From a virus, in the IMG/VR virus record IMGVR_UViG_3300042090_001013, positions 1 to 41,893 of that record: a DNA stretch of 41,893 nucleotides. One strand, written 5' to 3'. Under the pieces are notes generated by a model. That model had not been told where the DNA came from. It worked only from the letters and a program-made list of their open reading frames with translations, and made no database searches. How positions within the stretch are numbered: the first letter of the stretch is position 1; each line of letters starts with the position of its first letter. Shown here piece after piece: positions 6,045-7,552 of this stretch. Made by a program: the position numbers and the translations under genes.

Positions 6045-6305
6045 ATGGAAAAGAAAGATGATTCCGCCCTCCCCGCCGTGCAGGTGAAGGAGGGTGCTGA
6101 CCTTGTGTACCAGGCGATCACCACGCGGAAGGCGCTGGAAAACGTGAGCAACAGCGAGCCGAGGAAGAACGTCGCGGATCTCGGATTGGCCAGGGTGACG
6201 TTCGTCTGCCTGGAGAACGGCATCCTGCGCACTTACATCAGGATCGTGAGCGCCCAGACGGTCCCGGCGGTGATCGCCCTCCTGGAAGACGGGGAAATCG
6301 GGTAA
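6045..6305 (+). CDS. Hypothetical protein
   Basis: 86 aa starting MEKKDDSALPAVQVKEG, with AAGGAAA seven bases ahead of the ATG. It appears to be a small alpha/beta domain (RVTFVCLENGILRTYIRIV, then VPAVIALLEDGEIG). No known family seen. Last protein gene before the tRNA region. Confidence 0.65.
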   Translation: MEKKDDSALPAVQVKEGADLVYQAITTRKALENVSNSEPRKNVADLGLARVTFVCLENGILRTYIRIVSAQTVPAVIALLEDGEIG

Positions 6306-6309
6306 GGGC

Positions 6310-6338
6310 TTGCGCTGACCGCAGGACGGTGCTAGTGT
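6310..6338 (+). promoter_or_regulatory. Promoter of the tRNA region, overlapping a hairpin
   Basis: -35 TTGCGC (6310-6315), 17-bp spacer and extended -10 TGCTAGTGT (6330-6338). The same -35 is used at 26884 and 2951. The site is also highly self-complementary: TTGCGCT (6310-6316) with AGCGCAA (6347-6353), ACC with GGT, and AGGAC (6323-6327) with GTCCT (6337-6341). The DNA could be an operator, or the RNA folded. No protein frame lies between 6306 and 6653. Confidence 0.5.
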
Positions 6339-6395
6339 CCTTGGTGAGCGCAAACTCAAACTCAGTCATCAAGCTGAACGTGACGCGAGCATCGC

Positions 6396-6463
6396 GGGAA
6401 GGTCTAGGTTCAACTCCTGGCGGCGGTACGTGCCGCTGTAGCTCATGGAGAGCATCCCCCTCG
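6396..6463 (+). tRNA. Circularly permuted tRNA-like gene A (3' half before 5' half)
   Basis: The 3' half comes first. T-stem CTAGG (6404-6408), T-loop TTCAACT, CCTGG (6416-6420), 3' acceptor strand CGGCGGT (6421-6427) and discriminator A. After three bases (CGT) the 5' half begins: GCCGCTG (6432-6438), TA, D-arm GCTC-ATGGA-GAGC (6441-6453), A, then TCCC. The acceptor strands pair 7/7 (two G-U). TCCC (6455-6458) pairs with GGGA (6396-6399) for a 4-bp anticodon stem, with a 4-nt variable loop AGGT. If the 5' half runs on, the loop would read CT-CGC (Ala-type), but the anticodon is not secure. No CCA is encoded. Flanking sequences also pair. Confidence 0.55.
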
Positions 6464-6520
6464 CACGTGAAACTATCGCTCGAAACTGAAACTTGAAAAG
6501 CCCTGTCGCAGATCTACCGG

Positions 6521-6601
6521 TTACGGTCAATGTCGTGAAGGCGCGGGTTCGAATCCCGCCGGGAGCGCAAAACCATGCTCCCGTAGCTTAGCGGAAGAGC
6601 G
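6521..6601 (+). tRNA. Circularly permuted tRNA-like gene B
   Basis: T-arm GCGGG-TTCGAAT-CCCGC (6543-6559) is canonical. The 3' acceptor strand CGGGAGC (6560-6566) and G73 follow. Nine bases (CAAAACCAT, containing CCA) separate it from the 5' strand GCTCCCG (6577-6583), which pairs 7/7 in perfect Watson-Crick fashion. TA and the D-arm GCTT-AGCGGAA-GAGC (6586-6600) follow. Upstream, TTACG-GTCAATGT-CGTGA (6521-6538) can form an anticodon arm with an 8-nt loop, followed by AGGC. U33-CAA would read as Leu. That would place the break between positions 26 and 27. The anticodon arm is the weak part of the model. Confidence 0.5.
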
Positions 6602-6653
6602 TCCTGCCTTAGAACTGAACCGTACCGACCGTCGCTGTGGCAGACGAGCACTC

Positions 6654-6726
6654 ACTAAGGTAGCTCAATGGATGAGCGCCGGTCTTCTAAACCGGAGGAT
6701 GCTGGCTTCGATACCAGCCCTTAAAA
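6654..6726 (+). tRNA. tRNA-Arg (TCT), imperfect
   Basis: Conventional order. D-arm GCTC-AATGGAT-GAGC (6663-6677), anticodon stem CCGGT/ACCGG with loop CTTCTAA (6684-6690), so anticodon TCT for AGA codons. Variable loop AGGAT. T-stem GCTGG/CCAGC encloses an 8-nt loop (CTTCGATA) instead of seven. The acceptor pairs at only five positions (ACTAAGG with CCTTAAA; the two outer pairs mismatch). CCA is not encoded. AGA is a rare codon in high-GC hosts, so a phage copy would make sense, but the defects raise the question whether it is functional or edited. Confidence 0.65.
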
Positions 6727-6731
6727 ACATC

Positions 6732-6762
6732 GCCCCCCCGGACAGGCTACGTCCGGGGGGGC
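6732..6762 (+). terminator. 12-bp GC hairpin terminator
   Basis: GCCCCCCCGGAC (6732-6743) and GTCCGGGGGGGC (6751-6762) pair perfectly around a 7-nt loop. No U-run follows, as is common for actinobacterial terminators. It closes the tRNA region just before the next gene. Confidence 0.7.
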
Positions 6763-6784
6763 ACCAATCTGAGAAGAGGAAAAG

Positions 6785-7552
6785 ATGGCGACGACTCTCG
6801 CGCAGCTGCTCGCGGTGGAGAAGGGAATCCGGCAGGATGACCACGATGCCACCACCGAGCTGTACAAGGGGCTTCAGCGGACCGGCGCGTTCAGCGGGGA
6901 GACCCGGAAGTACCGCGTGCTCACCGTGGACAGCACCGGGAAGCCTGCCGGGATCGCGCAGCCCGACAAGCAGGTCAACATCACGGCGAACACGAAGGAT
7001 TACCTGGACCTGTTCCGGGAATGCCGCGCCCGTACCATTGACGTGATCCTGACTAAGGACCTTGCCAACCGGGGTGCGTCGGCTGACCTCGTGGTCGATG
7101 GCGTTACCCTGGCGACCGGGATGCCATCGGTGACCTTGCTCTCGCTGGAGAAGACCGCTGATGACATCGTGGCTTTCATCAAGGCGCTTCCCACCCTGGA
7201 CCCCACCGAGAAGTGGACGTACGACGAGAATGTCGGCTGCTACCGCAGTGAGCCCGCCAAGACCCTCAGCACCAGCAAGGAAACGGTGCCGCTGATCCTC
7301 TGGCAGCCCGATGACCCGGCTACCTCCAAGCACGGTCCGGTTACCGACAAGGTTCAGAAGGATGTTCCTGTCGGTGAGTGGACGGTTACCAAGTTCTCTT
7401 CCGCGATTCCTGCCGGGCGCAAGCAGGTACTGCTTGCCCGCGCGGCGAAGTTCCGCGAGGCGGTCAAGTATGCCCGCGAGAAGGCGAACTACGCTCCGGT
7501 GACCGATGCGCACGCCGGGAAGACCATTTTCGACTGGCTGTTCGCGGAGTGA
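6785..7552 (+). CDS. Conserved actinophage-type hypothetical protein
   Basis: 255 aa starting MATTLAQLLAVEKGIRQDDH, with AGAGGAAAAG before the ATG. It has the look of a widespread, cytoplasmic, soluble protein of actinophages, but I cannot name a function. No membrane segment or catalytic motif is evident. The C-terminus is basic and helical (KQVLLARAAKFREAVKYARE) and ends FDWLFAE. It lies between two strong hairpins, so it is probably a single-gene transcript. Confidence 0.75.
   Translation: MATTLAQLLAVEKGIRQDDHDATTELYKGLQRTGAFSGETRKYRVLTVDSTGKPAGIAQPDKQVNITANTKDYLDLFRECRARTIDVILTKDLANRGASADLVVDGVTLATGMPSVTLLSLEKTADDIVAFIKALPTLDPTEKWTYDENVGCYRSEPAKTLSTSKETVPLILWQPDDPATSKHGPVTDKVQKDVPVGEWTVTKFSSAIPAGRKQVLLARAAKFREAVKYAREKANYAPVTDAHAGKTIFDWLFAE

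Follow-up and report, generated by a model that had tools for sequence, protein, structure and literature searches.

The window analysed here is the whole 41,893-nt stretch of viral record IMGVR_UViG_3300042090_001013, and the features of interest lie close together on its forward strand (Table 1). Two tRNA-like units, A and B, are arranged in tandem and are followed by a normal-order tRNA-Arg(TCT) and a GC-rich terminator-like hairpin. In the tRNA-Arg(TCT) the acceptor stem carries two mismatches at its top and the T-loop is 8 nt long, so that this gene may be non-functional; the next gene in the window (6785-7549) encodes a DUF7873 protein (E 3e-67).

Table 1. Positions of the RNA features at the locus, numbered along the window.
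Feature	Position	Strand	Evidence
Unit A, YrlA-like permuted tRNA-mimic RNA, probable extent	6362-6490	+	R1 25.9 bits, full length; RF02553 19.5 bits at 6375-6485
Unit A T-arm, CTAGG-TTCAACT-CCTGG (loop TTCAACT)	6404-6420	+	sequence, scan
Unit A acceptor-like hairpin: 3′ acceptor CGGCGGT (6421-6427), loop ACGT (6428-6431), 5′ acceptor GCCGCTG (6432-6438)	6421-6438	+	7/7 pairs; acceptor pair identical in L524, on a Y-type stem
Unit A D-arm, GCTC-ATGGA-GAGC	6441-6453	+	sequence; folds in natural order
Unit B, YrlA-like permuted tRNA-mimic RNA, probable extent	6497-6639	+	R1 39.6 bits, full length; RF02553 29.8 bits, E 1e-4, at 6523-6626
Unit B 5′ basal-strand motif GTCGCAG-N6-CGGTTAC, candidate Ro-protein binding strand	6505-6524	+	one copy in the window; none in 100 shuffles
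Unit B T-arm, GCGGG-TTCGAAT-CCCGC (loop TTCGAAT)	6543-6559	+	sequence
Unit B acceptor-like hairpin: 3′ acceptor CGGGAGC (6560-6566), loop GCAAAACCAT (6567-6576), 5′ acceptor GCTCCCG (6577-6583)	6560-6583	+	7/7 Watson-Crick
Unit B D-arm, GCTT-AGCGGAA-GAGC	6586-6600	+	sequence
Normal-order tRNA-Arg(TCT), downstream of the pair	6654-6726	+	ARAGORN; Rfam 45.2 bits
GC-rich terminator-like hairpin after the RNA genes	6732-6763	+	folds as long hairpin; sequence

In each unit a T-arm and 3′ acceptor strand come first; a loop (4 nt in unit A, 10 nt in unit B) separates them from the complementary 5′ acceptor strand, after which a D-arm follows. The acceptor strands pair at 7/7 positions in both units, with two G-U pairs in unit A and Watson-Crick pairs throughout in unit B. 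Permuted cores (7/7 acceptor plus 5/5 T-stem) were found twice in the real window and in none of 60 dinucleotide-shuffled windows, and the minimum-energy fold of the sequence in its natural order has all three hairpins. Sequence, pairing and shuffles thus confirm the permuted order described in the initial annotation, whose label "circularly permuted tRNA-like" describes both units correctly. ARAGORN called only the tRNA-Arg(TCT) in this region and neither of the units. The sole fit of the two units to the Rfam tRNA model (RF00005), which fused the 5′ half of unit A with the 3′ half of unit B across 136 nt (31.6 bits), was rejected as an artefact that skips 80 nt.

YrlA is an RNA of 90-150 nt, the end-to-end stem of which binds Rsr and the head of which resembles the D, T and acceptor arms; the head is modified by DusA and TruB and is able to bind PNPase (PMC8394870). 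YrlA is present in several phages (PMC7765460), and a single tRNA-damage operon links Rsr and YrlA with the RNA ligase RtcB (PMC7790460). The consensus of the YrlA family RF02553 runs from a T-arm hairpin through a loop-closed acceptor hairpin to a D-arm hairpin, with a basal stem around them. The alignments of A and B each span the full length of this model (positions 1-114), and the model also matches permuted units outside the window. Neither reached the gathering score of 69, which is a curation threshold and not a biological feature, and which was passed by 0 of the 50 records searched, TROVE-bearing ones included. As their scores (Table 1) lie under this cutoff, we filed the units as YrlA-like and not as members of RF02553. 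A further covariance model, R1, was built from 15 other permuted units with the window excluded, and it recovered both A and B. Within those 15 units, 16 pairs are changed on both sides, in the T-stem, the acceptor hairpin and the basal stem. Ordinary tandem tRNAs score 45-49 bits on R1 and 31.8 bits on RF02553 by chance pairing, and the R1 or RF02553 score alone is not decisive because such tandem genes reach comparable or higher values.

Many contigs of viruses and bacteria were picked up by pattern scans whose sole requirements were a T-loop, a short gap and a D-arm, and 130 distinct permuted units were left after removal of overlaps with ordinary tRNAs. These come from metagenomic phages and from Streptomyces, Nocardiopsis, Rhodococcus, Nonomuraea and Lachnospiraceae genomes. 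Covariance-model matches were obtained in Gordonia phage Cashline, Microbacterium phage SM23, Brevundimonas phage Gurke and Mycobacterium phages Lumos and Phabba, and in the records that we inspected the permuted units were mostly without annotation or misannotated as tRNA. One phage contig has a GOLLD RNA (207 bits, L069:5852-6267) near its permuted units. Megablast with the window gave no phage match. No permuted unit was found in the terminase relatives of the window phage, and the closest of these (L003, with a 58% identical terminase) carries about 40 normal tRNAs. The initial annotation had proposed that related phages be searched for a conserved permutation with compensatory changes; compensatory changes are there in the 15 aligned units.

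TROVE (Ro60) genes occurred in 27/50 viral records with permuted units vs. 3/38 control records, in which nothing but ordinary tandem tRNAs had been picked up. Where TROVE was absent, DUF2828 was found in 13 of the 23 permuted records vs. 3 of 24 controls. The Cashline unit adjoins a gene for a Ro-like RNA-binding protein (TROVE by Pfam), TROVE domains were detected by Pfam beside the units in Nocardiopsis, Streptomyces and Rhodococcus loci, and in Phabba some 37 kb separate the unit from a TROVE gene. In Lumos (L510) DUF2828 is located next to the permuted unit. In phages with ACAGCAA-type units (for example G010, G025, G034 and Lumos) the place of TROVE is taken by DUF2828 (PF11443), which often comes with a vWA domain and is a candidate Ro60-like partner. 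Three loci from Lachnospiraceae or Clostridia (L274, L310, L343) have permuted units beside proteins of 680-720 aa without a Pfam match, which are possible diverged Ro-type partners. No TROVE or DUF2828 gene was found in the 41.9-kb window, a linear record that is probably a fragment.

The 5′ basal-strand motif of unit B also recurs in this company. Outside the window, the form GTCG(A/C)AG-N5-7-CGGTTA(C/T) was found among 4.8 Mb of loci only in a TROVE record (L030), in a locus of a genome that has TROVE (L309) and in a TROVE phage (L517), all of them Y-like; the motif was picked after comparing unit B with L030 and L309, and L517 is the independent match. A Ro-type motif profile gave p 0.035 for unit B, and none was recognisable in unit A (p 0.74). 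For unit A the likeness lies in the acceptor hairpin: a pattern scan with CGGCGGT...GCCGCTG gave 62 matches, the sole tRNA-like one being L524, in which the same two strands are placed on a textbook Y stem. The corresponding scan with CGGGAGC...GCTCCCG gave 15 matches which, besides L030, were mostly ordinary hairpins and two normal tRNAs. When the flanks were shuffled, the basal stems folded as well as the real ones (z 0.5 for A and −0.5 for B).

We interpret units A and B as divergent YrlA-type Y RNAs, non-coding tRNA mimics of about 130-140 nt, and give this reading a probability of roughly 0.7, unit A being the weaker case of the pair. As computed from the sequence, each transcript can form the T-arm, the loop-closed acceptor-like hairpin and the D-arm in permuted order. 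Like YrlA, the units have a permuted T-arm/acceptor-hairpin/D-arm head and a similar length, and YrlA RNAs also occur in phages, frequently as runs of several copies close to tRNA genes; the likeness in the 5′ motif is limited to unit B. Unlike YrlA, both units fall below the Rfam cutoff, their basal stem is not demonstrable by energy alone, unit A is without a recognisable Ro motif and the window fragment is without a Ro60 or DUF2828 gene. Both ends of the transcript would pair into a basal stem that may be bound by a Ro60-type ring protein, which either the host or phage sequence missing from the record would supply. By analogy with known YrlA, the tRNA-like head might be modified by tRNA enzymes such as TruB and DusA and might tether or gate an effector such as PNPase. 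The transcript would stay whole, with its ends neither cut nor rejoined, and decoding of codons would not be expected. The puzzle of how a bacterial phage could join tRNA halves would then disappear.

An alternative raised in the initial annotation is that the units are what is left of tandem tRNA genes after loss of the outer halves; such remnants would be without function. The units adjoin a tRNA gene, and ordinary tandem tRNAs do give permuted signatures between them. Such an origin, however, requires two independent identical tandem pairs, each losing exactly its outer halves, and A and B are two different units, each with a full acceptor match. In relatives the hairpin is kept by compensatory changes, and arrays of several permuted units are found in other phages (L116, L118, L207 and L513). 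We consider this explanation unlikely.

The other explanation in the initial annotation was that these are true circularly permuted tRNA genes. In that case RNase P and 3′ processing would open the acceptor loop, the anticodon-stem junction would be cut and the halves joined into a working tRNA. Like the permuted tRNA genes of Cyanidioschyzon and archaea, units A and B have the 3′ half before the 5′ half and a short inter-acceptor loop (PMC3978253, PMC3218864). Unlike those genes, they are without a demonstrated splice junction or bulge-helix-bulge, unit B is without a restorable anticodon arm, and an unspliced RNA class explains them. No bulge-helix-bulge was obvious in the computed folds, and no report of permuted tRNA in phages or bacteria was found in the literature searched. 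The anticodon arms had been called the weak part, which holds for unit B. When the halves of unit A are joined at one point, a full arm TCCCC-CTCGCAC-GGGGA with a CGC anticodon is rebuilt, and 3.5% of mismatched half-pairs equal it. The joined halves of unit B give at best a 4/5 anticodon stem with an ambiguous loop, equalled by 59% of mismatched pairs, so for the pair as a whole joining does not yield complete cloverleaves with canonical anticodon arms. Near-perfect arms were rebuilt from their own halves in 42/130 units vs. 9.6% of mismatched pairs. This could reflect fuller tRNA mimicry, decoys or a minority of real spliced tRNAs. Against spliced tRNAs, 6 of the 20 loci with at least 3 normal tRNAs already have an ordinary gene for the anticodon in question, no splicing enzyme is known here and such cores accompany Ro60-type genes. 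End-joining is thus unsupported for this pair: the nested order is the consensus of RF02553, a family of unspliced tRNA mimics, relatives with such cores travel with TROVE or the TROVE-like DUF2828, and the arm of unit B is not rebuilt. We regard true permuted tRNA genes as improbable.

Normal-order tRNA-Asn genes with insertions share the ACAGCAA/ACAGCAG motif, which speaks for true permuted tRNA genes, but the insertion could just as well be an additional arm that stays in the RNA. Two such tRNA-Asn(GTT) genes (L115:2154 on the + strand, and L504:4037 in reverse-complement coordinates, in phage records of 412 kb and 410 kb) carry an insertion of 51-54 nt in the anticodon stem, on its 5′ strand. 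As in the permuted units, the insertion contains a hairpin with CC-ACAGCAA or CC-ACAGCAG after it; it may be a mini-intron or an extra protein-binding arm. A more far-reaching reading invokes a small intron-like element of about 40-75 nt, which would lie within the tRNA-Asn genes of huge phages in normal order and would surround whole tRNAs where the order is permuted. Some permuted units, including unit A with its CGC anticodon arm, might then be tRNA genes from which such an element is removed and the halves joined, although we think this very unlikely; if true, removal of a small intron-like element would be a bacterial route to permuted tRNAs. A mini-intron class had first been favoured on account of the joined arms and the tRNA-Asn insertions and was downgraded by the Ro-protein neighbours and the YrlA matches. 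Cassettes of about 60 nt with the pattern AGGAAAC-NN-ACAGCAA...GTTTCC were also seen in tRNA arrays (L472, L426, L441, L450, L455 and L504). They enclose only an anticodon-like stem-loop, with loops CTTTTAA, CTGTAAA, CTGTGAA and CTGCTAA, and resemble Y RNAs whose head is an anticodon arm.

It is still less probable, indeed barely credible, that the units are permuted two-piece tmRNA-like or other tRNA-like RNAs unrelated to Y RNA. Permuted tmRNA has the order T-arm, acceptor, acceptor, D-arm, with acceptor strands reversed and joined by a loop as in units A and B. Unlike it, however, the units have no tag-coding region between the arms, and tmRNA families were unmatched at E up to 10 in 6200-6760. 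A permuted group I intron (PIE) was rejected, since intron families were unmatched and the space is too small.

Reading units A and B as YrlA-type Y RNAs would remove apparent permuted tRNA genes from this bacteriophage and trace their signature to Y RNA tRNA mimics, which escape ordinary tRNA finders and Rfam thresholds. Our survey suggests that actinobacterial and huge phages widely carry such RNAs, in many cases without annotation, and that they are tied to DUF2828 besides TROVE.
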